Below, piece after piece: positions 6,411 to 63,279 of a stretch of 64,000 nucleotides of DNA. The position numbers were made by a program, and so were the translations under genes. This stretch comes from Prosopocoilus inquinatus (Eukaryota > Arthropoda > Insecta > Coleoptera > Lucanidae). The stretch lies in the NCBI GenBank assembly GCA_036172665.1, contig CM069880.1, positions 7,876,501 to 7,940,500 on the forward strand, read 5' to 3'. The notes under the pieces were generated by a model. The model saw nothing but the letters and a program-made list of their open reading frames with translations. It searched no databases and had not been told where the DNA came from. How positions within the stretch are numbered: the first letter of the stretch is position 1; the number at the start of each line of letters is the position of its first letter.

Positions 6411-6734
<324 letters not shown>

Positions 6735-8631
6735 TAATACATATAGAGAGACTTCAAACTTTATAAATAAATGTTGCCTACCTGACAGATACATTATATT
6801 AATTCTTATAAAAAAAAATACCTTTCTTGGAAACCAAATTTAATTTACAAAAATTTTAAAAACATCGGTCTTTTCTCTTCTTTACGAGAAAAAACAATAT
6901 GTAACTTGAAGTTATTAAATGAAGTAAATGCATTTCACGATTTGTTGCATGGAAATAACATTTGGAATCGTGTAGTGATTTGTCCTACATAAACCCATTG
7001 CTGACAGCAAGAGTACAACGACCTCTGTACTATAAACAGCAAGATTGGCGTGAAAACCGTAAAATAGTATTAGCTTACGCTTCCTAGCAGAAAGCGATTG
7101 ATGTGCGGCGTATCGTATTTATGTCGTCCTATTGTTAGAGATTGCATCGCAATTATAGGTCATTTGCTTCCCCATTCGCCCCTTAATCAGGCTGATTGTT
7201 CAGGAGGAAAAATAACGACAAATGCTGCATTCGTTTCGAAGCTCACGATATAATTGGCTGGAATACAAATAAAAGATGTCCTGTTTACGCATGACTTTCC
7301 TGAAAATAGCTGCTTCCTTGCAAAAGCTCTACGAAAATACGAGATGTACTTCGACTAGAAAAAAGTTTATCCTGGGTCATTGTCCTATCTCCTTAGCAAC
7401 ATGTTACAAGACATTTCCGGAAACTCTGTAATCTGAAACACAATTCTTTGCTGAAACTCATTAATTTAGCAACGACCATCGTTCATTGTGACGACTTTTT
7501 ATTAAACTGTACAACTTGGAAAATATAGTAGTGCAAACTTGGGGGACCCTGTATATTTCTTTAATTTTAATTTTATTTTTGTTAAATATAGATTCAAAAA
7601 CCAAACTATATTGAAAACCGTTCTAAGGGAATATTTTCTAAAAGGTACTTTTGGTGAATAATGATAAACGAATTTTATTTTGGTTTCGATATTGCATAGG
7701 GTCGATGTGTTCCTTTGATGACCTGTTAATAAAGTTCGTTAGCAATTGGTTTAACTAACTAATAACCAATATACAGAACTTAATTTTGCATATTTCTTAG
7801 AAATGCGCTTGCCTACTACCATTCCTGATTTTCAAGCTTGGTTCATTTTATTGCTTAACAAGAAACGTACATTCGCGAGCATTAAATTTTGGTCATCACT
7901 GTCAACCAAAACGTCCGTTTCAATTCCAAACAATATTCTATCGTCTACCAAAAAAATAGGCGAAAAACATAATAAATTTTAAAAAAATCATTTGCAGTAT
8001 GTATTGAAAATTAAGATATCAATGTCCTCACTTTTAGTAAAATACAAGTCAGGCGGCATCGATCTTTGACAATTAGTGACGATCAAAATTTATTGTTCGC
8101 GACTGTACTTTAACTGTGAGTAAGTCTTGTGTATTCAAAATGTTTGAGATCCGCTGAATAACAAATACCATGCGATCAACGGAATTTATAATTAGAGTAG
8201 GCTGCGATATTTACCATAAAGTTGGCAACACAGTCTCACAACTTGAAATTAAAAATTTGAAGTGTCAGAACTTTGACATTTCTTTTTAATGTTTGTGTTG
8301 CTCGTTGCATTGAAGATGACCAGCAAAACTTTCGATATTATTGTAATTTTAGTAGAAATTTTCAAATTTTTTCTTTAAACTTATTTTATTTCTGCATGTA
8401 AACAAAATAATATTTACTATATCATCATCAAACATCGTAAAAAGCAGGAACATAACCTCAAATGTAACAACTGTCAATTTATTATTCATTTCTTAGTGTG
8501 CCCAACCACACATCATAAAATATTACTAATCAGAGCTCCCTCTAATTATAAGTTCTGTTGATCACAAGGTAAAATAGCTAATGGTGCACTATTATTTCAT
8601 TTCCTATCTTTATGTAATTATAGAATTGTCA

Positions 8632-13300: not shown

Positions 13301-14060
13301 ATATGTCATCATATAACGAAGCTCTAAGTTAATATTTCCGCAACAAACGTGTTCCGTGTTTGAAATTATTGAAAACCTATAACGAGCTTTTTCAATCAAA
13401 AATTGATAAATAACATATGTACAGTTGAAAAAAAAAACTCTAGCGTGCTTTGAAATACGTTAAGTTAAGACACGCATTAATTTTCCATGGATTGCTGCGA
13501 GTTTTATTTTCAACCCTACATACTTTATAATATCAAATTCAAAACAATGTGTGTATTGTATATTATGACACAAGAAGAACAATACAACACAACTTGTTCC
13601 ATTTTTAATCTAAGTATATAGAATTAATACGTAATTTCTAGCCCATTTTTTTACGAAACACAAAACTTAGTATAAAATGACATTTGTATTTAATAGGTAT
13701 GTATACTTTATGTAAGAATTGAATAAAATCGTTGACTCGCTTCAATCTCACAATCAGAGAAGGATGTTAAATGCAAAAGCGAAATAAAAAGTACAATATT
13801 CCATTTGAAAAAAAAAGAAACTTTGTGTACACTTGCTTTTAGGGTGATCCATCAAGTCTCAGAGTTAACCCACTCTTTCGTTCCCAGAGATTTTTAATAC
13901 ATAGATCGCTCATCTGTATTATACCGGGTGAATTTAATAGCTCTACTAACATTTTTTACACAGTGACAATATAAGTAAAATCTTGCAAAACACTTGAATT
14001 TGCTCTACACAAACGTTTAGTTTTAGTTAGGTTTCTAAAAATAAATTTGGATTTGACTCC

Positions 14061-14128
14061 TAACCACAATATGTTTTTTAAAAACTAAACATGTATTTCG
14101 GCAGCTGTGCTGCCGTCTTCAGTAGTTA
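14061..14128 (-). ncRNA. Hammerhead-like fold in the left arm of the Penelope-like element
   Basis: On the minus strand: TAACTA, CTGAAGA, an extra C, helix GGCAGC/GCTGCC with loop ACA, GAAA, an imperfect helix (ATA..TGTTT with AAACATAT), then GTGGTTA, which pairs with TAACTAC. The three-helix layout and both core boxes match a hammerhead, but there is one extra base next to helix II and the position expected to be the cleaved base is not a normal H. It is probably a diverged or inactive ribozyme. Confidence 0.45.
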
Positions 14129-14389
14129 CGACTTCTATCCTACTAAATCGCAGGAGAAGTGACAGTGTCATACCTATCGCTACCTTATATACTAAGTGCG
14201 TTCCGCTCCAATGAAGCGTGCGCTTCCGGTAGTGAGCGCCTCACCGTCAACTAAGTCAAGCAACACAGAACCTGCCAAAGGCCCGTGATCGGCGTTCATT
14301 AAATCATTACTGATTTTGTGTATAAAAATGGTTTCTAAACCGTCTAATTCCCTGTTGCTTGACGTTGCTTTTACTAACCTAAGATTACT

Positions 14390-15235
14390 TCAATCTATTT
14401 TATGACTGATGTCAAAAATATGTTGGGCAACACTGGATTTTTCAATTCTATTGTACTTTAAGTGAGCTAAGTGTTCCTTAAAACGTGTTAGTATGTTTCT
14501 TTTTGTTTGCCCAATATGTTTTTTAGTGCACCCTTGACAAGATATTTCGTAGATCCCTGATTTCTCATTTGGTTCAGCTTTGTCCTTGGGGTTTGTTAGT
14601 AAACGTTTTAGAGTGTTGTTATTAGTATATCCAATTGTGTACCCTTGTGTTTTAAAAATGTTATTGAAACCTTTAGAGCAGCTTTTGTCGTACGGAATTT
14701 TAATATATTTAGACGTGTTTGTTTCTGCTGGTAACAAAGTGGTAAATTTTTTGATATTGGCCTTATTTACAATTTTCCTTAACATATTTTCTACAATATC
14801 TACTGAGTAACCATTGTGAATTGTTACATCTTTAACAAATTTAAGTTCTTTGTTGTACCTTTCTTTGGACAGTGGGAAGTTAACTAATCTATTAAGTAGA
14901 AAAGAAATTACAGAATACTACTTATGTGATAAGGTATGTTGTGAATCATTAACAATAAATCTATTGGTGTTTGTTTCTTTCCTATATATATCAAATTCTA
15001 ATTTGTTTTCACTATTTCTAATAACCAAGGCATCCAGGAATGGTAATTTTCCATTTACCTCTTTTTCAAACGTGAATTTAATACTAGGAAATTTAGAATT
15101 TAAAATATCCAAAAAATCTTCTATTCTGCATTCCTTGGTATTAAAAACAGCGAAAACATCATCTACATATCTAAACCATATTCTAGGGAAATAAGTACAA
15201 TTTTCTTTGAGTGATGTTTCTAAATTACACTTAAA
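14390..15235 (-). pseudogene. Penelope-like RT (YVDD) and GIY-YIG endonuclease, truncated and frameshifted
   Basis: Minus strand. Reading downward from about 15230, the first frame gives a reverse-transcriptase palm end with RYVDDVFAVF (about 15180-15150), then KFTFEKEVNGKLPFLDALV and IYRKETNTNRF, typical of the Penelope palm/thumb region, and a stop after SHK near 14918. A frame change near 14930 is needed to continue into RLVNFPLSKERYNKELKF and then into the frame 14785-14390. That frame contains the GIY-YIG nuclease: GIYEISCQGC at residues 77-86, HIG at 90-92 in place of YIG, and the R101/H105 region in RFKEH. The N-terminal fingers and palm of the RT are missing, so the copy cannot be autonomous. 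The stop codon falls at the start of the left arm. Confidence 0.88.
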
Positions 15236-15533
15236 AGGTTAGCCACCAGTCATAAAATAGATTTAAGTAATCTTAGGTTAGTAAAAGCAACGTCAAGCAA
15301 CAGAGAATTAGACGGTTTTGAAACTATTTTTATACACAAAACCAGTAATAATTTAATGAACGCCGATCACGGGCCTTTGGCAGGTTCTGTGTTGCTTGAC
15401 TTGGTTGACGCAACCCGGTGAGGCGCTCACTACTAGAAGCACACGCTTCATTGGAGCGGAACGCACTTAGTATATAAGGTAGCGATAGGTATGACACCGT
15501 CACTTCTCCTGTGATTTAGTAGGATAGAAGTCG

Positions 15534-15602
15534 CAACTACTGAAGATGGCAGCATAGCTGTCAAAATACGTATTTAGTTTTTAAAAAAACATATTGTGGT
15601 TA
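15534..15602 (+). ncRNA. Hammerhead-like fold in the right arm of the Penelope-like element, core mutated
   Basis: Plus-strand counterpart of the 14061-14128 fold. CTGAAGA (15539-15545) and hairpin GGCAGC..GCTGTC are followed by AAAA instead of GAAA, and CAACTAC (15534-15540) can pair with GTGGTTA (15596-15602). Loss of the conserved G12 would be expected to abolish cleavage. Confidence 0.4.
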
Positions 15603-16165
15603 GGAGTCAAATCTAAATTTATTGTTAGACAAGCCACAGTCTCCAATACATTAAACATAGGTTTCTAAAAGTCATTTGAATTTGTTTTGACCGAAGCATG
15701 CAAACTATTAAATTCACCTTGTATAATACTTAACCTACCGACCGTAAAAGACTAAACAATTTTAAGGTACTTCTGCCATTCGGGTAAATAGAAACTGTTT
15801 ACATCAGTAATGCAGATGAAGACAAAATATCCGGAGTTATACCTAAAATAATCCAAAGCTAATTATAGTGTAATGAAGAAGTCCGATTAATTAAGTTAAT
15901 TAATGGCAATCCATTGAGATTACTTACATAAAAAATCGAAAGTCAAAAAAGGAAGAGAAACATTTTGGAACGAAGGGCGACCCTAATTAGTTTTTGTTTC
16001 TGCACACGCACCGGCGAAAATCCATTTTCGTACTAATTCTACGCCTCGCCTTAATGCGTAAAATAAACTGTACAGCGGCGAGAATGAAATTAAAAGTTTT
16101 AACGGACGCTACGTGTAAGAGATTTGTTTTTGTCTGGTCCTTGCAAGCGATGTCAAATATACTTC

Positions 16166-16335: not shown

Positions 16336-17280
16336 CAAAACCGTTAACCAAAAAGAAACATATAACCTGTGGAGAACGAAAAATCTTACAAAAAGGCCCG
16401 AACTAGATTCTAATAAATTAGCAGCGCTCTGAAGATATATCTATATTAAAGAGCGGAAAAATTTCGGAAGTCGAAATTGAAGAAATTAAAAGTGAAGTTC
16501 AGCGGTACATAAATCAAGAAAATCTGGAAAAAGTAGAAGAACCAAATATAAACGAGAACAACGACGACGGGCAGGATGAAAATATTAACGTTATAAACAA
16601 TGAAAACGCACAAGAAAATCAACAAAAGAATATACTCCATGACAAACAAATGAAATCACCTTGGATATGAAACAAAAGTTTTATGTCGAGGTTAAAAAAT
16701 TACAGGGTATACCATTAAGCGAAAGAGAGTTTCTACCACGAATAAGAATAACAAGGAAAGCACTCGAAAACATCAAACAAACAAACAGAGCTTTGGAAAT
16801 TACAAATATAACAACAAATACCTTGGCGTGGAAGAAAGGGGAATCACTGAAACTCGGGTTAAACTGATAACAAAAAGTGAGTTAAACGCAAAATACAAAG
16901 CTGAGGCCATCGGGACGCTAGCAGTACCCGTGCTACAATACAGTTTAGGAATCATCAATTTGGACAAGAAAAGAAATCCGAGATATGGACACGAGAACCA
17001 GAAAAATACTGACCGTCAATGGAATGCACCATCCCAGAGCAGATGTGGACAGACTATACTACCCGAGGGCTAAAGGAGGCAGAGGATTTAGGCAACTAGA
17101 AGCAGTCTACCAACAAGAAATTTGCAATATAGCCCTATATCTGAAATCCAAACAACAAGAGCCATTAATCAAATCAATACTAAAATGTGACAATACAAGA
17201 GGAACAAAATTAATAACGAAACAATATGAAGAATTTAGAGAAAATCTGCAGATCACAGATACGTTAACAGAAAACCCTAC

Positions 17281-17629
17281 AAAACAACAAACAGATAAAA
17301 TAGCGACATCTTACTATCGCTTTTTGACCTGACATTGCAGTAGGGTAGACAAATTGAAGCGGGATTTGCTCCTAATAAGTTCCCCATGCAAGGCGGCCAT
17401 GCTTGCTGTCAAGGATAATGAAAATTTTAGAAAAATTTTGTGCAAATCGTTTTTGATTGCAGCGAGAACCTCGAGCAGCCTCTGGACAGCTGTTTCAGCA
17501 GCGGGAATGTCGAGCTACGTCTCTGCTGAAGAAGCCCCAAGCAGGGCTGAAACAGCTGTCCAGAGGCTGCTCGAGGTTCTCGCTGCAATCAAAAACGATT
17601 TGCACAAAATTTTTCTAAAACAACAAACA
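17281..17629 (+). mobile_element. Hammerhead repeat (retrozyme-like) insertion in the LINE ORF, with 13-bp target duplication
   Basis: AAAACAACAAACA occurs at 17281-17293 and again at 17617-17629, directly flanking a 323-bp insert (17294-17616). The insert is a fold-back: 17294-17500 is the repeat unit in minus orientation (from GATAAAATAGCGACATC to within the ribozyme), and 17501-17616 is the plus-orientation 3' part, with a complete ribozyme and the terminal ACAAAATTTTTCT. Insert plus one duplication is 336 bp, a multiple of three, and the LINE frame (..TKQQT | LKTK..) continues across it once the insert is removed. This defines the insertion exactly and shows it is younger than the LINE. 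Confidence 0.92.
17510..17574 (+). ncRNA. Type I hammerhead ribozyme (copy in LINE)
   Basis: Complete motif identical in sequence to the array B copies (see 62517-62581 for the pairing scheme). Core CTGAAGA and GAA, helix II AGCCC/GGGCT, GTC triplet. Predicted cleavage after 17560. Confidence 0.88.
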
Positions 17630-18575
17630 TTAAAAACAAAGATCAAAATGGGATTCCACACCAAATGGACAGGAAAACCGATGCATGGGCAATACGTAAG
17701 ACAAACTACTAATGAAAATACCTCTCCCTTCACTAACGCTTCGCTTAAAGGCGAATTGATGAAAGCTGAAACTGAGGCATTTTTATGCGCAGCGCAAGAT
17801 CAAGCCATACCTGTAAGATACAGAAGACATCGAGCATATTATTTCCAGATACGACAAAATATGTCAATACTTACCTTCCATCACAAAATTGTAGTGGCCG
17901 CATCAGATGATCCAATAAAAACTCAATGGTACAATAACCAACCAGAAGTGGTTACAAATATTGGAGATGTTACGATACTGCGAAACGAACTCATAACGAT
18001 AGACAACACTGTGACTGCGAACAAACCAGACATCGTAATTAAAGACAATAAAAATAAATTATGTAAAATGATTGAGATCTCAATACCATCAGACCACCAT
18101 ATAATAACCAAAGAGGCGGAAAAACGGTTAAAATATAAATCACTAGAAATCGAGATTAAACGAATGTGGGGATTTAAAGTTGAAACAATCCCAATCATTA
18201 TAGGAGCCTTAGGAGCAGTCCCAAAGTCATTGGAACAAAACATTAGACACATTTCGGCGACAGTTAATGAAAGGGAGTTACAGAAAGTAGCACTGCTGGG
18301 AACTACACATATACTGAGGAAAATCCTGGGTTAAAAAATATGTAAATAAAAAAGAACAATAACAAATTTAAAAAGATATTTAAAAAAAGTTAAAAAAAGT
18401 AAAAATAATAATAATAAAAAGAAAACAAATTACCTTTACCAGAAGAACATCTAAGTCCAGACTGCCATCCCGGCAACACCAACCACGGACATCCTGAGGT
18501 CAACGGAGTAGTCCTGGGGTCCTGGAGCCTCAGAATAGCATGTGGGACATCAGATCGTTTATGTATGTATGTATA

Positions 18576-22346: not shown

Positions 22347-23521
22347 CAGGCTGGGCCAACAGTGCGTGGGCGGAAGATTGTGGCGTTACTATGGAAAATT
22401 TTTGAAATCTGTATGCGCAAAAACATACACGTCAGTTAGATACATAATCTAAAATTATTTAGTCTTATATAGAGTGTTCCGTAAAAGTGTGACGACCCTA
22501 ACATAAGTTTTTTTAAATGGAACACCCTATGTATTATTACACTATTAGATGTCTCATTATCAGTGGACGAAAGTAATATAAGGTTTTATTGACCTAAAGT
22601 TTATAGTTTTCGAGGTATTGACCATTTACCGTTAAAAAATGGCAAAATTTGTTACTCCATAAAGTAGTTATTTTTAAATATTTTGCTTTGAATTTTGGTG
22701 GATACATTATTTAACTATTAGAAAACAGAAATGTATGATCAACTCGAATTTTTTCCGGGTACTTTACACAGGGTGATTCACAACGCAAATACCTTTTTTC
22801 TAAAAAAATTTAAATGGAACGCCCTGTATATAAAAATTTCCCTTACTAAGGTTTCCAAAAATATAAGACTTTTTACGTATAGCTCTTAAACTTTGAACGT
22901 AGAAAGTTTTTAAATTTGTATCTTTAAAGTCTCAACTGTATTGTAATTTAATAAATAAAATTGGATTTTGTTTTGTTTCTAATGGACATACGTTTGGTAA
23001 TAACATTTTTAATAACCTTGATAATAATAACAGTAGATGTTTTTTAATGTGTGAACCAACATTTAGAACACACCGATTTTTTTTAAATTAAAAAACTGTT
23101 ACATTGAACTAAATTTAATTTCTTTACAATCATATCATTGTTCAATTGTTTTGCATTGTATTCATAGTACAAAATATACAAAATACCACAAATGTAATAA
23201 CATAAATCTTAGTTAACAAAAGAAAAACTAGATTTAACAAACATGCTCAAAATGTAATCCAGTTTGTTTTATACATTTTTAATTTGGCTATTAAAACTTA
23301 TTAATTATTATTAATAGTACAGACATAATACATACAAATGCAATTCTAAATAATTCTGTTTCATGATCTCGACATCCATAGGAGATTCACTAAACCCATT
23401 TATATTCTGGCGTAAAAAAAATAATAAAATCAGACGGAAGTTTGCGTAGCAACTCAAAATTCTTCGGCATTTTATTTATTGAATTAACTATTTAGTTAAA
23501 TCATTCTCTTTATTTATGATT

Positions 23522-23785
23522 ATGAGCAAATCCCCCTTCAATTTGTCTATCCTACTGCAATGTCAGGTCAAAAAGAGATCGTAAGATGTCGCTATTTTAT
23601 CTGTTCATCACTCTTACATCGCAATTGCGAATAAATTGGACAGGTCGTTTTTGTTTGCAGTGGGAATGTCGAGCTACGTCTCTGCTGAAGAAGCCCCAAG
23701 CAGGGCTGAAACAGCTGTACAGAGGCTGCTCGAGGTTTTCATTGCAATCAAAAACGATTTGCACAAAATTTTTCTAATAAGATTT
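23522..23785 (+). mobile_element. Single hammerhead repeat unit (retrozyme-like) inside the fold-back
   Basis: From GAGCAAATCCC to ACAAAATTTTTCTA it matches the 310-bp unit in plus orientation with scattered substitutions, and it ends at the same 3' boundary as the other insertions. The 5' part of the unit is missing or too diverged to delimit, and I could not find a clear target duplication. Confidence 0.8.
23669..23733 (+). ncRNA. Type I hammerhead ribozyme, GUA variant
   Basis: All helices and both core boxes are as in the array copies, but the cleavage triplet is GTA (base 23719 is A) rather than GTC. GUA still obeys the NUH rule, so cleavage after 23719 is possible, probably with altered rate. 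TGTAC also weakens nothing else in helix I. Confidence 0.82.
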
Positions 23786-26489
23786 TAAAGATATAAATTA
23801 AAAAAATTTCTACGCTCAAAGTTTAAGGGTTATATGTGAAAAGTTTTATACTATTGGAAACTTTAGTAAGAGATGTTCTAAACTATGTGTTCGTATACAG
23901 AATGTTCCATTAAAATTTTTTTAGAGAAATGGTATTTTGTGTTGTGAATCACCCTGTGTAAAGTACCCAGAAAAAAATCGAGTTGATCATACATTTCTGT
24001 TTTCTAATAGTTAAATAATGTATCCACCAAAATTCAAAGCAAGATATTTAAAAATAACTAAATTACGGAATTACAAATTTGGCCATTTTTTACCGGTAAA
24101 TTGTCAATATCTCGAAAACGATAAACTTTAGGTCAATAAAACCTTATATTACTTTCGTCCACTGATAATGAGACATCTAATAGTGCAATAATATATAGGG
24201 TGTTCCATTTAAAAAAAACATATGTTAGGGTCGTCACACTCTTACGGAACACTCTGTATAAGTCTAAATAATTTTAGATTGTACAGCTAACCGATATGTA
24301 TGTTATTGCGTACACAGATTTCAAAAATTTTCGATAGTAACGCTACAATCTTCCACCCACACACTGTTGGCCCACCCTGTATATTCAATATATCCATATT
24401 TTTTGTGTGTGGATTTCAAGTTATTGTTAGATATTATTTCATATTTCCTGTGAGAGAAAGCTTTGAATAACCCACGTTATCATTTATAAAGCTTTGTTCT
24501 TAGAAATGATGAACCGGGCTTATTTAAATCTGATTCATTCTGTTCTGTTTGGAACAATGGGTGGGTTGCCTGTATGTCGTAATATAATATACATAACTAG
24601 TCCTAAAATTCGAAAATGCTGAGTTTGAGGCTTGAAAAAATATTTCTACTTGAAAATTTAATTAACCCCAGAACTCGAAATGTTGAAAGGATAAGACGAA
24701 ATAATGAAAGCATCAGGACTAGTTGAATGATCAACAGCGAAGTCGTTTTCCTTGCTTTCGCCGTCCATTTTACTTTCCTCTGCATTTTCTCTCTATCTTA
24801 ATAAATAATTCAGAATTAATTATACTTCAAACAATTTTTCGCTTCGCTTCAGTCGGAAACGTTCTATTTAGGTTCTCATTTTTTTAAAGGCTCGTCCGCG
24901 AGGACTAATTTGGTTAATTTTGATTTAAATGATAATTTAAGATAATATAGAGAGTTCTTGTCAAATTTCAAATGGGCAATTTAGAAATAAACGCCGCCAA
25001 ACGAGGACACCCGTTCGTTTTTATCATTAATCATTTCGCGAGCACAATTTTATTGTCCATCCCTGACAAGTTTTATTTAATTTAGCAGAAATTGTTTCGC
25101 TTCGAATACAGAATTAAATTCCATTTAACCTTAGTCCTTTCAAGTCGGTTTTGTGCGAAATTTCTAGAAATTCTAACATGACAAACGCCTTTGCTTTCAA
25201 ATATGAAAATCAAACTTTTCTGTTTGTCGTCATCATTAGAATTAATTGCTTTGTAAATTTCGAGTCACGTAAGCAAAATAATTTCGATTTGTATTCCGTG
25301 GGTGTACAATACGAGCAGGGATGTAGATCAAGCGGCCGCATTTGGTTTATTCATATAAAATTTTAAGTTGGACTATGCTTGTTTAACTTGCCTCAGAGAT
25401 TGGTGGAAAATTAAACATGAGTTGCAACAGCATAAGTTTTCTGCCTCGGAAGTTTTGGATTTACGCTTTTGAAGTAGCCATCGCAGTAGCTCGACGTTCT
25501 TAATTAAACACGATGTATTTAAAAGGGTCAAGCGGACCGATAACACTTGTGAAACCCCCAGAATAATATAAATATTAGATCTGCGAATTGAATTTAATTG
25601 GAGATATTCCGGAGATATCCTTTTCAAACTTTAAATCGTTTAAAATATCTGGAGTTGAAATGTCAAATTCCTTTACGATATTACATCCCTTCGCGAACGT
25701 TTCGTGAGCCGGGAGGGTTTAAAAATTTAAACTTGTTCGTATTTACTCATTTTCAAAGTTCTTGCGTAATGTGCGGACGTAGATCTTAAAGAATACCGGC
25801 TAGCTTTATACGCCCAAAGAAATACTTGAGAATATGCAAACTTTGATGAAGTTCTGTTTCACGACCGACTCATTCGCCTTCCCTTCTTTCTTTCTTTTTG
25901 GGGCTACGATCTTTTAAACCCACAACAATAAAACACCATGTGCTTTTAAGCTAAACAAACTGCTTTGTTCTAACTTTAACGAAATACTATTTATTCACTT
26001 TTCACTGCTTTATGAAAGCAGCAAAATAATACGAATCGAATGCAGTTCAAAGTTCAACGCGAATGAAACTTATTGATTTTAGAGTTGAGAATGTACGAGG
26101 GTCTGATGTGTGTGTTTTTACGTCGGACTATATTTAAACGCAAACAAAAAATTTTACATAAATTTCCTCCATCCTCGTTAAATCTATGATCGAATTAATC
26201 TTCGACGAGCATTAAATATTACATCAGTCGCACGCAGCTACTTAATCAAGCAAGAGCTTTCGCAAATTTATGGCGAACTAAATTATTAAAGTTGATTTCA
26301 TCCTCTTATAATAAAAGGTACTCCCGACACACACTGTTCTGTAATTCATTATTACGATTTGAATTTATTAATTTTATCTACGTAATTTTTATCTGTTATA
26401 TTTCGTTTTTTATAGCTTAACATTGCATTAGTTATTCATTACTATTACATAGCATATTCATTACTATTACATTGCGCATATCTTTGGTC

Positions 26490-26625
26490 AAGTCGTTTTG
26501 GTTTGCAGTAGAACTCTCCAGCTACGCTTCTACTGATGAAACCTCAAATAAAGCTGAAACAGCTGTACAGAGTTGTTCGAGGGACTCACTACAATCAAAA
26601 ACGATATGCAACAAAATTATTTATA
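26490..26625 (+). pseudogene. Decayed hammerhead repeat just upstream of the second mGluR exon
   Basis: CAAGTCGTTTTGGTTTGCAGT at about 26489 onward and AATCAAAAACGATATGCA at the other end match the 310-bp unit. Between them are CTGATGA (26533), CTGAAACAGCTGTACAGAG and TTCGAGG, remnants of the ribozyme. Helix II (AACCT with AAGCT) and both parts of helix I are broken, so it should be inactive. It ends about 60 bases before the exon acceptor at 26684. Confidence 0.72.
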
Positions 26626-26684
26626 ATTCGTTTTGTGTTTACTAAGAGGCATATATTAAATAGTATTTTCTTTTGTCTTTTCAG

Positions 26685-26854: not shown

Positions 26855-27417
26855 GTAAGTCTCTAAAATCTTTGTTATCTGAAAATATTCAATTCGTTGA
26901 TTTTCTGAGCTCCACCAGCTACGTGCATAATCGAATCTATCGCTCTAGCGCAATTAAACCATTTACTTAATTAGACCGTGGATAAAACAAATACTCTAGA
27001 TTATAATTATAATTAGGTCAAATCAATATTATATCAAACAGTCTTGTGGTGAAATAGATTGCGTCAATAACGGAGCATAGAAATCAATTAATTAATGCAA
27101 GTCGGAATACTCACAAAGCATTTTCTCAAAAACAGCTCCGTTATGAAATTCCTAATGCTAGATAAATTTTTCGGATGAAAGAACCTTGTTAAACAACAGA
27201 GATTATCCCGATTATACAGAGAAGATTACGTAATTTCATACTTTGGGGGAATCGCCCTTACGAAAAACAACATAAATAAATCCCATCGAAACGATAGAGT
27301 CAAATTCTTTTTTTTTTAATTGCATCAGATTAGAGCAACAAATCCAACAAGTGAAGAAGTGTGTTTTCGTTTTGTTAGGAATTTAGGGAAACTTAAGGCG
27401 TTTTATTTTTGTTCCAG
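26855..27417 (+). other. Short mGluR intron (563 bp)
   Basis: GTAAGT donor and 'TTTGTTCCAG' acceptor. AT-rich, and I see no repeat or RNA gene in it. Confidence 0.9.
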
Positions 27418-27572
27418 GAAACTGCTATACGCTACAATCCGCGCTAATAAAACGGGCCACTTTTTGTGGATCGGCAGCGATTCTTGGGGAGCAAAAGTTC
27501 ATCCGGTGAGGGATCAAGAGTGGGCTGCTGAAGGAGCTATTACAATTCTACCCCACAGGAACTCCGTTCGAG
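27418..27572 (+). CDS. Metabotropic glutamate receptor, exon with the GSDSW ligand-binding loop
   Basis: 155 bp, phase 2 in and phase 1 out. It encodes [20 protein letters not shown], then [20 protein letters not shown] and [11 protein letters not shown]. The aspartate of GSDSW is the conserved mGlu residue that contacts the ligand amino group. ANKTGHF holds an N-glycosylation sequon (NKT) at the position where group III receptors have a similar ANQTGHF, and [13 protein letters not shown] also matches group III. The donor is GTAATA. The final G joins AA of the next exon to make Glu. Confidence 0.95.
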
Positions 27573-29925
27573 GTAATAGACTGTACTGTGTTTATATTAT
27601 ACGCGTATTCTCTTAACCACCATCAACACGAGACGACTTCACTTATAATTAGTCGCCTATGTTGTTTATACATTACGTTTTCTGGCAAACTAAAATTACC
27701 AGAGTTCATGTACAAACCCAACATTAACTCATTTATGTATATGCTATAAACTACTATATGTATATACTAATAAAACATGGCTTTAATTAGAATTCGTATT
27801 TAGATGGGGGAGAGCTAGTAATAATTGAGGAGACCAAAGCGAAATTAATTTATGTATAATTAACCAAAAAATAAAAATAAATAAAAGGAAACACAAGAAA
27901 AAGCATATGAATGATGAGCTAGCTATCACTCTACTCTAAGCGGATCGTATTCGAGATCATTAATCATTAAAATCATGATGAATGAGTTGTACATGTTTGA
28001 GGACGGCTCTCAACAGTATATGACAATTTCAATATCACGTAATTGATCCAAATATTCAAGAGTGTAGGTTTTCTTTTTTTTTTTTTTTGATGGTATAAAA
28101 GAGAAACATCGTGCCTGTGTCGTTTTATATAACATATTTTGCAACATCTGTTATTTTTATGAGACTCTCGTGTAGAATTTTAAGGATCTTCCTGTGATAT
28201 ATCGTTGTTTAAGGAAAGTTAAATTTTTATCACGCGAAACTCGACTTGCCGATATCACCACCTTATAGTAACAGGAATGGGAATTAGAAGCTGTGCTCAA
28301 TAAAGGAGTTCGAGATAGCCCCGCGTAAATGTGGGGGAAAGTTAGAATTTGAATTCCCGACAAAAACCGCTTCGGAAAAAGTACAATCGTGACGAAACTT
28401 AATACGATATTTCCAGCAGGCGAATGCGACCTGTCATTCTTTTTCTGTTCTTTACTACTACTATTTCTGACTTCCAGGACCATTTCTGTAACGAACTTCC
28501 ATAAGTAGCAGAAACGTTTTTCACGAACGAAAAAAGAACGTCTCTCTTTAATTAATATCTTGATTGATACTCGTATGAAGATGATATGTTCTATGAGGAT
28601 TAACACCGTCGCCTTCCTTGTATTTACTTACATATACAGTATGAAGCCCAGGGAATTAGTATACATTATATCAAAAGGCAGTTAATCTTTCCAGAGAACG
28701 TGTATTACGTCAGCTGCGGTTAACCTGCGATGTTATAGGCTAAATACAACAATAAAACAACAGATTATAAAGATGCTTCCAACTCAGTAATTAATTAGAC
28801 GAAAGCTTGTATGTACGTTTAAAATATGGTCATGTTATCAAATAGAACCCCAGATTTACCCTGGATATACATATACTCATGTTATACATATACGTACATT
28901 GGAAGGATCATAGATAAGTAGCTTAAAATAAAACTCATTTTCAGTTCAATATAAAGCAAGGCAGGACTATAATTTATGTATATACATCGTACTATTTTTT
29001 GCACAAATTTATAAAAAAAGTACTTCACACTGTCAAATTAAATCATTTAGATGTTCAGTTTATTTATTAATAAATAAAGGGCATGCGTTTGTGTATTTAT
29101 TTGAAAACGATACGCACGTTTAATTTTACATTTGTCCAAATTGAATTTCATAAAACAAAATTTTTTTTGTTATTTGTGACAATTAGAAAAATATTTCATT
29201 GTATTTGTCCAACTGAAATTGAAGGATATAAAACTGCTTGCTCGATTCTGATTGAAATCTGAAATTATTTTTTATAACAAGTTACTTATAAATATTGCCT
29301 CCACTACTGCAATAAAATTTAAATAAAATAAGCTGCTACTTTTAATCAGCTGTTTCCGCCGATGAAGTTAGTCAATTATAACTGGACCCGATGTCATGCT
29401 AAAATGTTGAGAAACCAGATGTACAGAGTAGTAGCCATATGTCGATATCGAAATAAATTTGCGATTTTATTGAGACATCGAATATGGGCATTTGACAAAA
29501 TCACAATAAGAAATGTTTTCAAGTCAGTACTTTTAAATGCTACTTCATTTAAACGATTGTGTAAGTTGCGGAATATTATTTTTAACTGAAACCCCCATAA
29601 CTTAAAATATGTTTTCATAATTTAAAATATCAAATTTATTCGACCAAAAAATGTGCCTTTGAAACTGAATTAAAGGAAATAAATGCGTAGGATTGAAAAT
29701 AATTAACATTCACCGAGCTAAATAAACAAGAAAATTAATACCGCCTGAAATTTAGCGAACTAAAAAATTTTACCTTTCGTTACTTACTATTTGTAATTGT
29801 TAATTAGTGAATTGGTTCTGACAAGAGGAACGGCACAAAATTTGTTTAAAGACAAAGGAATAAACACTAAAAAAATTTTTCGTGCTTGAATAAATAAAAA
29901 AATTCAAACCCTTTAAGCCAAAAAA

Positions 29926-30670
29926 GTTTTGCGTATGGAAAAATTTAAACAAAAATTTAGGCGTGTTAAATCAATTAGAATCTTAAATGAAAGTTAAAAA
30001 CCTTTGAGTGAAAATATTTTTTTTTTGGGCAAATAATCACAGAAATTTCAAGTTTACTGAACTAAATATTTTCGCTACAGTAAATAGAAAAAAAATGCGT
30101 TAGTTGTGTAAGCAATTAATTAATTAAGGTGAAAAATCTAAATATTTCTGCTACAGTAAAGGGAAAAAAAGTTTTGCGAATGAAAAAATTTAAACAAAAA
30201 TTAAGGCATGTTAAATCAATTAGAATCTTACATGAATGCTAAAAAACCAAGGAGTCAAAATAATTTTTTTTTCTGGGCAAATAATCACAGAAATTTCAAG
30301 TTTACTGAACTAAATATTTTCGCTACCGTAAATAGAAAAGAAATGCGTTAGTTGTGTATGGAATTAATTAATTAAGGTGGAACACACGGACTAATTTTGA
30401 TTGACTGTGGAAAGACCTTGTTTTAGAGCTTTGCGATCGCAGCGTTTAATCTAATTTTCTGCTTTACACAAAATAAATTGCCAGCAAAATCTAAATATTT
30501 TTGCTACAGTAAAGGGAAAAAAGTCTGCATTAGTTGCGCATGGAATTAATTACTAGCTGAGGAGCACAAAAATTGCTTTCAATTGACCATGAAAAGGCAG
30601 TGTTTTAGTGCTTTTGCGATCGCAGCGTTTGATCTCATTTTCTATTTTATGCAAAATAAATTGCCTGCAA
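29926..30670. repeat. Diverged tandem repeats, about 245-bp unit
   Basis: GTTTTGCG followed by ATGGAAAAATTTAAACAAAA and GTTAAATCAATTAGAATCTT occurs at 29926 and 30171 (period 245). GGGCAAATAATCACAGAAAT and CTGAACTAAATATTTTCGCTAC follow in both. A shorter related pair (TTTGCGATCGCAGCGTTT and CAAAATAAATTGCC) repeats at about 30428 and 30615. Confidence 0.88.
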
Positions 30671-49700: not shown

Positions 49701-49889
49701 TGAAACTTTTTAAACATATAAAATAGCGACATCTTACTATCGCTTTTTGACCTAACATTGCAGTAGGATAGACAAATTGAAGCGGGATTTGCTCCTAATG
49801 AGTCCCCCATGCAAGGCGGCCATGCTTGCTGTCAAAGCATAATGAAAGATTTTAGAAAAATTTTGTGCAAATCGTTTTTGATGGGAATG

Positions 49890-49954
49890 TCGAGCTACGT
49901 TTCTGCTGAAGAAGCCCCAAGCAGGGCTGAAACAGCTGTCCAGAGGCTGCTCGA
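49890..49954 (+). ncRNA. Type I hammerhead ribozyme, array A copy 1
   Basis: TCGAGC/GCTCGA outer helix I; inner helix I TTCTG/CAGAG contains one U-G wobble compared with array B. CTGAAGA and GAA cores and GTC triplet are intact. Predicted cleavage after 49940. Confidence 0.9.
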
Positions 49955-50201
49955 GGTTCTCACTGCAATCAAAAACGATTTGCACAAAATTTTTCTAAAA
50001 TCTTTCATTATGCTTTGACAGCAAGCATGGCCGCCTTGCATGGGGGACTCATTAGGAGCAAATCCCGCTTCAATTTGTCTATCCTACTGCAATGTTAGGT
50101 CAAAAAGCGATAGTAAGATGTCGCTATTTTATATGTTCATCATTCTTACATCGCATTTGCGAATAAATTGGGCAAGTCGTTTTTGGTCTGCAGTGGGAAT
50201 G

Positions 50202-50266
50202 TCGAGCTACGTTTCTGCTGAAGAAGCCCCAAGCAGGGCTGAAACAGCTGTCCAGAGGCTGCTCGA
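50202..50266 (+). ncRNA. Type I hammerhead ribozyme, array A copy 2
   Basis: Identical to copy 1, 312 bp downstream. Predicted cleavage after 50252, giving a 312-nt monomer RNA between copies 1 and 2. Confidence 0.9.
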
Positions 50267-50513
50267 GGTTCTCACTGCAATCAAAAACGATTTGCACAAA
50301 ATTTTTCTAAAATCTTTCATTATGCTTTGACAGCAAGCATGGCCGCCTTGCATGGGGGACTCATTAGGAGCAAATCCCGCTTCAATTTGTCTATCCTACT
50401 GCAATGTTAGGTCAAAAAGCGATAGTAAGATGTCGCTATTTTATATGTTCATCATTCTTACATCGCATTTGCGAATAAATTGGGCAAGTCGTTTTTGGTC
50501 TGCAGTGGGAATG

Positions 50514-50578
50514 TCGAGCTACGTTTCTGCTGAAGAAGCCCCAAGCAGGGCTGAAACAGCTGTCCAGAGGCTGCTCGA
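50514..50578 (+). ncRNA. Type I hammerhead ribozyme, array A copy 3
   Basis: Identical to copies 1 and 2. Predicted cleavage after 50564. Confidence 0.9.
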
Positions 50579-51599
50579 GGTTCTCACTGCAATCAAAAAC
50601 GATTTGCACAAAATTTTTTTTTGAAACTTTTTACTCTATTTGCGGGGAAACACTTCCTGAACATCGCTATAAAAACACAAAAAATGTGTTTTAGGCGTGA
50701 ATTTTAAATGAATGATTTGTTTGTGATTTTTGTGATGCCATCTGTCAACTCACGCTGTAAATTTGTAATTTGTCGTCTTATTAATAAAAACAATTTTAAA
50801 CACACATCGTTAAAGCGAAAAAACTTACAAGCATTTGCGGCGCAAACTGGAAAACCCTAAGAATGTTCAAAAACAATGTTCTGAAAAGAATTTTGAATAA
50901 GTAAGCATTTGTGGCACCATCTATTACCATAAGCTCTAACTTTGTCCTCTTTTTTGTAGGAAAAAAGTATGAAAGCAAGTGAAAAACAGCAGGAAAATTC
51001 AGGAAATTATGTTGCAAAAAACAATTATGAATAAATAAAGTTGAAATAGTCAGAACACAAGAAATTCCAAACATAAGTAGCGCCTTCTGTTAGTTGATCT
51101 ATAACTGCAATTAATTTGTTCAATTTTGTTACAAAATGTCTGAAAACGAATTTCTTCGAGAAAGTGCTAGTTTTCGGGAGCTTTTCTAAATTAGAATTAG
51201 CAATCTTGATATACTTAGCACAGAAAATAAGTTGAATTTTTTTTTAAAGTTCGTTTTACTTTCTTAATAATAAAAGGCGCTTCAACCCAGTAGCTAGACT
51301 TCTAGTTACGCCACTGGTTCTTCTAAGTTTCAAATATTTACATTTTATGTTTAAATAAGCTGAACTTTTGAAAGAGTTTTTTAATTTTGTTTCTCAATAA
51401 TAAAAGGCGCTGGTAAACCTGGTGGCAATGTTAGAGGTCAAAAGAGAATTTTTATTGCCACTTGATAAAACTTTGTATGACAAAATCTTTTGGCGAGAAA
51501 GAACAGAGACCATTTGCAAACCAAGCCTACACAGCTTCGTTAGCTTCCAGTTACTTTCTAAGTTTCCATTCTTATCGTCTAAATGTAAAACTGATTGGT

Positions 51600-57549: not shown

Positions 57550-59429
57550 GGGTGTTGGTAATTTCGCCACCAAATCACATCAATGCAATCATCGTACAGG
57601 TAAATTCGCCACCAACGATTAAAGGCATGGTAATCCTACCGGTAATTTCGCCACCGCACTTCTAAGAATTAATCTGTACGACGACAATCCAGGCAATTTG
57701 TTATAAATATATGTATTTTAATAGTGGTAGTAAAATAAAAATAGACATCGTAAAACAAATACATATATTGAAAAAAATGGTTATATTTTATATCTACACA
57801 AGATTACAATCCACATAATATATACACATTAAAAAAACTTATTACATTGGACTAGAATGGAAAGATACACATTTTAAAAAATTCAATCTGCTTGTTTCGT
57901 TAGTATTGTATCGTTGTATCATGTTATCAATAAATTTTTGCCTTTCTCTAACTTGTTTACTATGTATTTTTGCTGGCAAATGTAGACTTTGTATTTTGAC
58001 ATAAGTATCTATTTGAAATTCTTTAATTTTTTCTAAAAATATAAACAAATTAGGATGTGCTTTGTACATAGAATCGTTAAAATTGCGGTGAAATGATTCA
58101 CATGCATTTGTGGTACGTGTAATGCATGCAGAATTTTCAGCCCAAATTTTTGGTGGGAAAAGTGAATTTTCCGATATATAGGTATCAACTAAATAATCTG
58201 CATATGTTTCTACTCTGCCATCTTTGGGCATAATTTCAAATAAATCCATTGCAAAACAGTCGCCAATTTCAGCAGGGTTCAGATAAGTTAATGCAAACGT
58301 TACACGTAGCCAATGACTAATTAAACTGGATTTATCGTTATATTCTTTGATTAAACCGCACTTTTGTATTTTTCGGTACCATGCTTGACTTAGATGAAAT
58401 CGACAACCAATAATGCACACATTCGGCCAAGTTTCTTCAACTGCATTATGGATGGCTTTTTCAAAATCTATCACTACTTCCCGTATATTTAATGACACTT
58501 TACATTTATTTTCAATTAAATGAAATAGTTTTTTATAAGTTTCTGTTTGCTTGTTGGGTAATAAACAAAACAAAAGAGGTATATAATGTCCATTTTTGAC
58601 ACCGTGGATGGTGAAAAATTGACAAAAGTGTTGCGTACAATAATCAAAAGTACCATCAAGATAAATCCGTGTTACGGTGTGAAGAATACGAATATTTGTT
58701 TCACATGAAAAAACTACAATATTTTCACGATCGTTGTTTATGAATAAAAACGATTCCCCTTTGTCTGTTTTAACATTTAAATCACTTAAAATACGGTGCA
58801 CTTCACTAATAGTTTTGGGGGTAGGTGGAAAAAATTTACGGCGAGCGTTATACATATTTTTTCTTAGGTATTCGACGTCCACGCTGGTTATTGTTGGCGG
58901 CAAATTCTCCTTTAGTAGGTTTCTTATAATTTTGGCAGGCTTTTCGACCAAATCTTCAATCGCTTCTCTTTTACATGAAGCACTGACAATTTGTCGGTTT
59001 AAAGCAACTAAATTTGCATCATGACTGTGTTCACCGCTTGATTTTGTTATCACAGTATTGGTAATATCTCCCAGTGTATGAACTGTACATTTGCACGTTC
59101 GATTGCAACACTTCCACAAACTTTCAGTAGTGGATTTAATTTTTTTGTGGAAACTAAACTTATAATTGTCAACCACTAACATGGATTTGCCACGAATACT
59201 TGTAATAATTTTAAAATCCATACTGGAATGTTCACTCAACTACTAATGATATAGTACTGACCAAATAATAATCAATGCAAGAAAAGTACCTGGTTGTTTA
59301 CCCCTTAATCATTTGCACCCTCATTAAAATTTATCGAAAATATTGGTGGCGAAATTGCCCGTAGGATTAAGATCAGAGAAATAGGTCCAGGGATTAAAAT
59401 ACTTACTGGTGGCGACATTACCTGTCCCC
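57550..59429 (-). mobile_element. Mutator-like (MULE) DNA transposon, apparently complete
   Basis: 1880 bp between 8-bp direct repeats AATATTAT (57542-57549 and 59430-59437). The ends are GGGTGTTGGTAATTTCGCCA (left) and complement GGGGACAGGTAATGTCGCCA (right). The core word GGTAATTTCGCCACC is repeated as subterminal motifs: AGGTAAATTCGCCACCA (57597) and CGGTAATTTCGCCACCG (57639) on the left, and complement GGCAATTTCGCCACCA (about 59345) on the right. A single uninterrupted minus-strand transposase gene fills the interior. The long target duplication, multi-copy subterminal repeats and MULE-type protein agree with one another. Confidence 0.92.
57842..59239 (-). CDS. MULE transposase with FLYWCH-type zinc finger
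   Basis: A 465-residue uninterrupted frame. Residues about 8-74 form a FLYWCH-type zinc-binding module: a YKFSFHK strand, then LWKCCNRTCKC (W42, C44/C45) and a final HSH (H71, H73). Residues about 185-400 are the MULE DDE-type transposase: LDGTFDYC (D195), REVVIDFEKAIHNAVEETWP (D258), then CRFHLSQAWYRKI with the C279/H282 insert typical of MULEs, and TTNACESFHRNFN, whose E381 is the likely third acidic residue. Start chosen at the first Met upstream of the zinc module (59239); a second Met, six codons down, is also possible. Role: cut-and-paste transposition, binding the terminal GGTAATTTCGCC repeats. No frameshift or stop is seen, so this copy may be active or recently active. Confidence 0.9.
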   Translation of the reverse strand: MSEHSSMDFKIITSIRGKSMLVVDNYKFSFHKKIKSTTESLWKCCNRTCKCTVHTLGDITNTVITKSSGEHSHDANLVALNRQIVSASCKREAIEDLVEKPAKIIRNLLKENLPPTITSVDVEYLRKNMYNARRKFFPPTPKTISEVHRILSDLNVKTDKGESFLFINNDRENIVVFSCETNIRILHTVTRIYLDGTFDYCTQHFCQFFTIHGVKNGHYIPLLFCLLPNKQTETYKKLFHLIENKCKVSLNIREVVIDFEKAIHNAVEETWPNVCIIGCRFHLSQAWYRKIQKCGLIKEYNDKSSLISHWLRVTFALTYLNPAEIGDCFAMDLFEIMPKDGRVETYADYLVDTYISENSLFPPKIWAENSACITRTTNACESFHRNFNDSMYKAHPNLFIFLEKIKEFQIDTYVKIQSLHLPAKIHSKQVRERQKFIDNMIQRYNTNETSRLNFLKCVSFHSSPM

Positions 59430-61368: not shown

Positions 61369-61703
61369 TATACAGGGTCATTTTCAAATATTCCAATAAA
61401 ATCAAATCAGATTGCAGTTAAGTCTCAAGTTCTTTGATTGTCATCGCAAAAATTAACATAACAAAAAAAATTTTTGCTTATGGATGACACAGAATGATGA
61501 TACAGAATAATAATAATAATGAACAGATAAAATAGCGACATCTTACTATCGCTTTTTGACCTGACATTGCAGTAGGGTAGACAAATTGAAGCGGGATTTG
61601 CTCCTAATAAGTTCCCCATGCAAGGCGGCCATGCTTGCTGTCAAAGCATAATGAAAATTTTAGAAAAATTTTGTGCAAATCGTTTTTGATTGCAGCGAGA
61701 ACC

Positions 61704-61768
61704 TCGAGCAGCCTCTGGACAGCTGTTTCAGCCCTGCTTGGGGCTTCTTCAGCAGAGACGTAGCTCGA
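61704..61768 (-). ncRNA. Type I hammerhead ribozyme, array B minus copy 1
   Basis: Exact reverse complement of the plus copies. Predicted cleavage on the minus strand between 61718 and 61717. Confidence 0.9.
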
Positions 61769-62013
61769 CATTCCCACTGCAAACAAAAACGACTTGCCCA
61801 ATTTATTCGCATTTGCGATGTAAGAGTGATGAACAGATAAAATAGCGACATCTTACTATCGCTTTTTGACCTGACATTGCAGTAGGGTAGACAAATTGAA
61901 GCGGGATTTGCTCCTAATAAGTTCCCCATGCAAGGCGGCCATGCTTGCTGTCAAAGCATAATGAAAATTTTAGAAAAATTTTGTGCAAATCGTTTTTGAT
62001 TGCAGCGAGAACC

Positions 62014-62078
62014 TCGAGCAGCCTCTGGACAGCTGTTTCAGCCCTGCTTGGGGCTTCTTCAGCAGAGACGTAGCTCGA
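62014..62078 (-). ncRNA. Type I hammerhead ribozyme, array B minus copy 2
   Basis: Identical to the previous copy, 310 bp away. Predicted cleavage on the minus strand between 62028 and 62027. Confidence 0.9.
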
Positions 62079-62516
62079 CATTCCCACTGCAAACAAAAAC
62101 GACTTGCCCAATTTATTCGCATTTGCGATGTAAGAGTGATGAACAGATAAAATAGCGACATCTTACTATCGCTTTTTGACCTGACATTGCAGTAGGGTAG
62201 ACAAATTGAAGCGGGATTTGCTCCTAATAAGTTCCCCATGCAAGGCGGCCATGCTTGCTGTCAAAGCATAATGAAAATTTTAGAAAAAAAAACGATTTGC
62301 ACAAAATTTTTCTAAAATTTTCATTATGCTTTGACAGCAAGCATGGCCGCCTTGCATGGGGAACTTATTAGGAGCAAATCCCGCTTCAATTTGTCTACCC
62401 TACTGCAATGTCAGGTCAAAAAGCGATAGTAAGATGTCGCTATTTTATCTGTTCATCACTCTTACATCGCAAATGCGAATAAATTGGGCAAGTCGTTTTT
62501 GTTTGCAGTGGGAATG

Positions 62517-62581
62517 TCGAGCTACGTCTCTGCTGAAGAAGCCCCAAGCAGGGCTGAAACAGCTGTCCAGAGGCTGCTCGA
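62517..62581 (+). ncRNA. Type I hammerhead ribozyme, array B plus copy 1 (reference copy for pairing)
   Basis: Helix I outer TCGAGC (62517-62522) with GCTCGA (62576-62581); internal loop TACGT / GCT; helix I inner CTCTG (62528-62532) with CAGAG (62568-62572). Core box CTGAAGA (62533-62539). Helix II AGCCC (62540-62544) with GGGCT (62551-62555), loop CAAGCA. Core GAA (62556-62558). Helix III ACAG/CTGT (62559-62566), self-complementary with no real loop, a very short helix III as in Penelope-associated and retrozyme hammerheads, where dimers can be the active form. Cleavage triplet GTC with C17 at 62567. Every invariant core position of the hammerhead is satisfied. The internal loop of helix I and the loop of helix II are placed for the known tertiary contact. 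Activity is inferred. Confidence 0.93.
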
Positions 62582-62826
62582 GGTTCTCGCTGCAATCAAA
62601 AACGATTTGCACAAAATTTTTCTAAAATTTTCATTATGCTTTGACAGCAAGCATGGCCGCCTTGCATGGGGAACTTATTAGGAGCAAATCCCGCTTCAAT
62701 TTGTCTACCCTACTGCAATGTCAGGTCAAAAAGCGATAGTAAGATGTCGCTATTTTATCTGTTCATCACTCTTACATCGCAAATGCGAATAAATTGGGCA
62801 AGTCGTTTTTGTTTGCAGTGGGAATG

Positions 62827-62891
62827 TCGAGCTACGTCTCTGCTGAAGAAGCCCCAAGCAGGGCTGAAACAGCTGTCCAGAGGCTGCTCGA
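62827..62891 (+). ncRNA. Type I hammerhead ribozyme, array B plus copy 2
   Basis: Identical to the 62517 copy. Predicted cleavage after 62877, 310 nt from the previous site. Confidence 0.92.
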
Positions 62892-63136
62892 GGTTCTCGC
62901 TGCAATCAAAAACGATTTGCACAAAATTTTTCTAAAATTTTCATTATGCTTTGACAGCAAGCATGGCCGCCTTGCATGGGGAACTTATTAGGAGCAAATC
63001 CCGCTTCAATTTGTCTACCCTACTGCAATGTCAGGTCAAAAAGCGATAGTAAGATGTCGCTATTTTATCTGTTCATCACTCTTACATCGCAAATGCGAAT
63101 AAATTGGGCAAGTCGTTTTTGTTTGCAGTGGGAATG

Positions 63137-63201
63137 TCGAGCTACGTCTCTGCTGAAGAAGCCCCAAGCAGGGCTGAAACAGCTGTCCAGAGGCTGCTCG
63201 A
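63137..63201 (+). ncRNA. Type I hammerhead ribozyme, array B plus copy 3
   Basis: Identical to the 62517 copy. Predicted cleavage after 63187, defining a second 310-nt monomer. Confidence 0.92.
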
Positions 63202-63279
63202 GGTTCTCGCTGCAATCAAAAACGATTTGCACAAAATTTTTCTAAAATAATAATAATATTTTTAATGAATATTCGATTC

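Follow-up and report, generated by a model that had tools for sequence, protein, structure and literature searches.

Animal non-long-terminal-repeat (non-LTR) retrozymes are described as carrying a type I hammerhead ribozyme in units of ~170-400 nt, arranged as dimers to multimers, with a GC content below 50% and target-site duplications longer than 4 bp (PMC7229834). Penelope-like elements (PLEs) have been proposed as their mobiliser, on the grounds of shared type I hammerheads, tandem copies and co-existence (PMC7229834). Among PLEs, Penelope copies with inverted arms and an optional tail have been described, for which self-priming was favoured (PMC3846280). A purified PLE enzyme from Anolis is reported to cut and extend both strands of its target; its two internal start sites on the RNA lie downstream of the hammerhead cut, and the stretch between them forms the PLE tail (PMC11167929). 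Here we describe a 310-nt repeat from the lucanid beetle Prosopocoilus inquinatus, found in a 64-kb stretch of contig CM069880.1 (the window, meaning the whole of the DNA analysed at this locus). The repeat fits the description of an insect non-LTR retrozyme, non-coding and with a predicted type I hammerhead. Its insertions are built in a way that points to two-ended target-primed reverse transcription of the PLE type, with a circular or an uncut multimeric ribozyme RNA as template, a reading to which we give a probability of about 0.78.

Positions in the unit are counted from u1, the first base 3′ of the expected ribozyme cut. Tandem Repeats Finder reported arrays with a 310-bp period at 61519-62288 and at 62288-63248, and one with a 312-bp period at 49882-50618, with 100% matches in each. 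Five insertions of the family lie within the window (I1 to I5). I1, I2 and I3 share one layout, an antisense array followed by a sense array with a duplication of 12-13 nt on either side, and the units inside I2 and inside I3 show no differences. The first-pass annotation had set the extent of the repeat at 61521..63248; this is corrected to two arrays of opposite orientation spanning 61519-63245, enclosed by duplications at 61506-61518 and 63246-63258. It had also placed the repeat inside a receptor gene. That placement is supported only in part: in the portion of the window scanned for exons, those for receptor ligand binding were recognised at 6411-6737 (E 2e-22) and, less clearly, at 27320-27616 (E 0.011), and neither is near 61.5 kb. 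The insertions are as follows, with site A (u49-64) and site B (u191-200) denoting the two positions of the unit at which outer ends fall.

61506..61518: I3 left target-site duplication, 13 nt, AAT-rich; the target is simple sequence, which leaves the edge uncertain by a few nt
61519..62288, minus strand: antisense left arm of I3 (2.5 units), with its outer end at about u199 (site B)
61704..61768, minus strand: predicted hammerhead in the I3 left arm (descriptor)
62014..62078, minus strand: predicted hammerhead in the I3 left arm (descriptor)
62288..63245, plus strand: sense right arm of I3 (3.1 units), with its outer end at about u60 (site A)
62517..62581, plus strand: predicted hammerhead in the I3 right arm (descriptor and Rfam), predicted cut after 62567
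62827..62891, plus strand: predicted hammerhead in the I3 right arm (descriptor)
63137..63201, plus strand: predicted hammerhead in the I3 right arm (descriptor; weak HH9 match)
63246..63258: I3 right target-site duplication
17281..17629: I1, with an antisense arm to u196, a sense arm to u60 and duplications of 13 nt at 17281-17293 and 17617-17629
17510-17574: predicted I1 hammerhead
49701..50633: I2, the 312-nt variant, including its 12-nt duplications (49701-49712 and 50622-50633)
49713-49882 and 49882-50618: I2 antisense and sense arms, predicted hammerheads at 49890, 50202 and 50514
23519..23777, plus strand: I4, a single sense arm ending at site A (u58), duplication not found
23669-23733: predicted I4 hammerhead, A at the cut (GUA)
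26457..26628, plus strand: I5, one sense arm only, decayed to 76.7% identity, its end near site A (u62)

The same architecture recurs across the genome. A unit search of the 650-Mb assembly gave at least 239 matches, and the matches listed fall into 38 clusters. The sample comprised 42 loci, namely the 37 listed clusters outside the window and I1-I5, so that it represents best-matching copies and not random ones. With a 93% identity filter on the arms, head-to-head pairs were called in 37 of the 42. By exact extension, 34 of the 37 pairs combined an A end with a B end, a count that becomes 35 once the composite locus L036 was read by its outer ends (u195 and u64); independent choice of sites would yield this pairing with a binomial p of 1e-8. 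Two A ends occurred in two pairs (L037 and L042) and two B ends in none. Where the flank resembles the unit, mismatch-tolerant extension pushes some ends outwards (B to u207, A to u76). Duplications of 11-14 nt accompany 33 of the 37 pairs, while control pairs of flanks from different insertions match over a mean of 6.4 nt and reach at least 12 nt in only 14 of 1332 cases. Sites A and B of the unit are not significantly similar to each other as a common start signal (20 of 400 random pairs were at least as similar).

The predicted hammerhead of a complete unit is composed of CUGAAGA, a helix II of 5 bp, GAAA, a very short helix III and GUC or GUA. Helix I is made of 7 bp, an internal loop lying opposite loop II, and 5 further bp. 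Helix III consists of 2 bp and an AGCU loop within the palindrome ACAGCUGU, which makes it plausible that the hammerhead would act as a dimer. A hand-written descriptor (CUGANGA, helix II ≥3 bp, GAAA, helix III ≥2 bp, UH, helix I ≥5 bp) gave 10 matches in the window, all within the repeats, against a total of 2 in 40 random first-order Markov windows. These are the same ten complete copies that the first-pass annotation had listed. At the decayed copy that it placed near 26515 the core words are present, with helices that look damaged by eye. Its claim that base pairing supports helix III, which has only 2 bp, is weak. The covariance-model comparison that it proposed did yield a match of Rfam Hammerhead_1 (RF00163) to one 106-nt stretch, at 25.8 bits and E 9.3e-5; the gathering score is 34, and the default Rfam scan of the window was empty because the match falls below it. 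In an Rfam scan of 2 kb, the sole hammerhead match was Hammerhead_HH9 (16.3 bits, E 1.4). The many microRNA-family matches in the Rfam scan, all below gathering, are read as effects of the inverted repeat and of AT-rich sequence. In the 37 fetched loci and the window together, the core motif is kept in 161 of 165 hammerhead regions, with C at the cut in 152 and A in 9. A proposed comparison of substitutions with the helices is not decisive: 111 of the 165 regions are identical, and the 38 distinct forms are too alike for covariation.

The identification of the repeat as a retrozyme, already made in the first-pass annotation, is supported by the predicted hammerhead, the unit size, the GC content (43.9%) and the duplications, all of which fall within the description of animal non-LTR retrozymes (PMC7229834). 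The head-to-head layout, the fixed ends, the duplications and the PLE copy of the window had been overlooked. Two frames of the unit gave no Pfam match and one 103-aa frame no homologue, in each case at E<=1, and a search of viral contigs for retrozyme relatives with one DNA pattern returned 0 matches. We found no description of paired head-to-head arms with two fixed ends in the animal retrozyme report, and the word ‘inverted’ occurs 0 times in its main text; the link to PLEs is drawn there from shared traits, whereas here the insertion signature itself is compared (PMC7229834). Another insect repeat with a hammerhead, pDo500 of Dolichopoda cave crickets, is described as satellite DNA (PMC2837043). 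An ordinary satellite or a fold-back DNA element, bearing a hammerhead motif by chance and passing through no RNA stage, would likewise consist of tandem units, identical as they are inside I2 and inside I3, and could include inverted arrays. However, classical satellites form long arrays devoid of insertion boundaries, and the loci sampled here, which are the most similar ones, are short, dispersed arrays with 11-14-nt duplications. The two ends are moreover different positions of the unit and hence not mutual terminal inverted repeats, and the descriptor matches far exceed chance. Retention of the core motif points the same way, though it would be expected of young copies anyway. We consider a satellite or fold-back origin scarcely credible.

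A PLE encodes a reverse transcriptase and a GIY-YIG endonuclease. The frames of the 310-nt unit reach only ~100 aa and contain no such domain; therefore the unit is not itself a PLE. The window does hold a PLE copy, in which the same kind of arrangement can be seen.

14028..15670, minus strand: PLE copy with head-to-head inverted arms; reverse transcriptase and GIY-YIG fragments at 14390-15238
14028 and 15658: 13-nt duplication of this copy, TAGGTTTCTAAAA; one end is short and the other carries a 34-nt tail
14083..14127, minus strand: within the terminal repeat of the PLE, a minimal motif resembling a hammerhead, with CUGAAGA, a hairpin, GAAA and a short palindrome, recognised by eye

The terminal-repeat motif had no hammerhead family match at E up to 10. 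A longer frame of this PLE family gives RVT_1 and GIY-YIG matches above the cut-offs. In a protein search of the genome, 150 of 4,422 first-look candidates were scored, and 20 of the best matches together with the window copy made up a sample of 21 loci. Head-to-head pairs with both ends were found in 11 of them, the window copy included, and every one of the 11 has one short end (q897-918 of the probe) and one tailed end (q942-945). Duplications of 11-14 nt flank 10 of these pairs, a length of 11 nt being reached by 0 of 110 control pairs; the exception, L063, has a 6-nt duplication and a further antisense segment inside. The retrozyme insertions thus bear a PLE-type signature, with fixed ends in 35/37 and duplications in 33/37 as compared with 10/11 PLE pairs. 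A C just outside the duplication is favoured in both (28 of 62 retrozyme edges, 10 of 20 PLE edges). Head-to-head arms, a tailed end, short duplications and AT-rich targets are features in common with described PLEs (PMC11167929; PMC3846280), as is a hammerhead upstream of two internal start sites (PMC11167929). The putative cut of the PLE motif precedes the two ends by ~48 and 82 nt, and that of the retrozyme by 49-64 and 191-200 nt, so the start sites are spaced by ~137 nt in the retrozyme versus 34 nt in the window PLE. Unlike PLEs, the retrozyme has neither reverse transcriptase nor endonuclease.

Insertion of the retrozyme RNA by a LINE (long interspersed nuclear element) enzyme, with the inverted arm as an accident of twin priming, would produce the same arrangement, the same duplications and microhomology at the inner junction, and frames that look LINE-like by eye (with no Pfam match) surround I1. 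In LINE-1 twin-priming inversions, two primers on one RNA likewise create an inverted arm. The second complementary DNA (cDNA) of LINE twin priming, however, starts at scattered internal points, whereas in 35 of 37 insertions the retrozyme has its two outer ends within spans of 16 and 10 positions. No poly(A) was seen at the insertion ends, and a PLE family of the same genome gives the same pattern. On the retrozyme and PLE copies sampled, twin priming by a LINE enzyme is judged improbable.

The relation between the two arms bears on the template. These analyses used 33 of the 37 pairs, leaving aside L029, L036, L037 and L042. Within an insertion the arms are nearly one sequence: the 770-nt left arm of I3 has 0 mismatches to a concatemer of the right-arm unit, and across the sample the arm-to-arm mismatch is 0.21% as against 0.74% between insertions. 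Twenty minority variants are common to both arms, while arms re-paired 500 times share a mean of 1.9 and a maximum of 7. Units inside one arm disagree at 72 of 10,987 repeatedly read positions, half of which come from the single locus L013. At least one unit is spanned by 54 of the 66 arms, with 1.1 to 14 units per insertion when both arms are summed. Judged by length, each of the 33 A arms could have passed the ribozyme cut, as could 31 of the 33 B arms, and inner ends do not pile up there (2 of 66 at u306-u5, 2.1 expected); a cut linear monomer is therefore excluded as the template, which can be a circle or an uncut multimer.

Inner ends are enriched at u246-300, on the 5′ side of the ribozyme hairpin (30 of 66 against 11.7 expected, the share contributed by u253 being an artefact of the exact-match rule at a polymorphic site), and absent from u197-245 (0 of 66, 10.4 expected). 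This clustering may reflect a reverse transcriptase stopping at the ribozyme hairpin.

The inner junctions also address self-priming, the snap-back model proposed for Penelope (PMC3846280), in which one strand folds back and primes its own copy. Head-to-head arms and variants common to both are what it predicts. A fold-back should nevertheless join the arms at nearly equal positions, and the inner positions agree within 3 nt in just 1 of 33 insertions; site B as the second end and the duplications are left unexplained as well. The junctions instead overlap by 1-5 nt in 26 of 33 cases, by at least 2 nt in 58% as compared with 17% of random joins. Varying join positions with microhomology therefore fit the annealing of two cDNA 3′ ends and not a snap-back, which we regard as very improbable.

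Two-ended target-primed reverse transcription by a PLE-type enzyme could proceed as follows. A multimeric RNA would be cut by its ribozyme and closed into a circle, the form we favour, or would be left as an uncut multimer. A Penelope-type reverse transcriptase-endonuclease, probably a dimer, would make two nicks in AT-rich DNA, staggered by ~12-13 bp as read from the duplications. Each of the two target 3′ ends would then prime at its own fixed position inside the RNA, one at A and the other at B, in agreement with the observed fixed ends. Both cDNAs would pass the ribozyme junction, often for more than one round, and their 3′ ends would anneal at varying positions, mostly through 1-5 nt of homology. 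The product would be a head-to-head pair of tandem arrays between duplications. In its most specific form, which we put at even odds, one PLE-type dimer, with a dedicated site for each half, would copy one closed RNA circle from the two sides of a staggered break, and the two rolling-circle cDNAs would be joined by microhomology.

The same PLE machinery may instead use an uncut linear multimeric transcript, a variant contained within the overall estimate and rated as less likely than the circle. The purified PLE accepts RNA that has not been processed, and in vitro insertion is normal with ribozyme mutants (PMC11167929). That both arms mostly carry one haplotype speaks against this template. 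The absence of run-off ends at the cut fits a circle and an uncut multimer alike.

Several observations weigh against PLE-type insertion of a circular or multimeric RNA as set out above, or limit parts of it. Multi-unit arms are expected from an uncut linear multimer as much as from a circle. Eighteen minority variants were seen in a single arm only, at positions that both arms read; the units of one arm of L013 differ at 36 positions; and the shared variants could in part have arisen through gene conversion between inverted arms after insertion. Four loci (L009, L031, I4 and I5) have one arm only, ending at site A in all four, and no duplication was found at them. L038 is unpaired, its sense arm (88.6% identity) falling under the 93% filter; the mismatch-tolerant view shows an antisense arm to u198 and, after it, a sense arm to u54. 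L037 and L042, with two A ends, are exceptions. L037 (C3:38499300-38501900) shows mirror symmetry over 2.5 kb, flanks included, at 99.6%, which is perhaps a natural palindrome, an assembly artefact or an effect of duplication. L010 and L016, both on contig C5, match over at least ~0.5 kb of flank to the left and to the right, and are best counted once. Their flanks and duplication are common while the arrays between differ, which suggests either a segmental duplication with later array change or another cause. Ten of the 21 PLE loci are unpaired, including L064 and L066, where an inverted arm has a partner that stops short of the end.

The comparison with PLEs has its own discrepancies. An A at target position -2 is strongly preferred by the retrozyme (44 of 62) and not by the PLE (9 of 20). 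Retrozyme sites and the ends of the window's PLE family are not significantly similar, 25 of 104 other unit positions scoring as high as site A and 83 of 104 as high as site B. Because neither start-site similarity nor the position -2 preference is common to both, no PLE is named as the partner. For the Anolis enzyme, no start-site difference between the strands is reported to have been found (PMC11167929). The genomic pairs are compatible with strand-equal start sites because the arrangement is symmetric; what they add is a different site for each end of an insertion. That a PLE enzyme performs retrozyme insertion is, on the genomic evidence, the best inference.

Other features of the window include two further short tandem repeats, at 3951-4476 (254-bp unit) and 29920-30379 (248-bp unit), in which the descriptor found no hammerhead. 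An open frame of 465 aa at 57842-59239 on the minus strand is of the MULE type, with FLYWCH and MULE transposase domains and 80% identity to its top database match. Relatives of the MULE and PLE proteins of the window occur in Diorhabda, Tribolium, Aromia, Molorchus, Chrysoperla, Planococcus, aphids and a springtail. Degraded frames at 16696-18334 on the plus strand look LINE-like by eye and have no Pfam match above the cut-off; I1 sits within them, and one of its arms is read through in a 333-aa frame.

In the literature searched there is no account of such paired-end retrozyme insertion, though a prior mention elsewhere is possible. Animal retrozymes encode no protein, and the fixed two-end signature gives physical evidence that ties their insertion to PLE-type enzymology. 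For the head-to-head arms, it favours initiation from two primers over self-priming.
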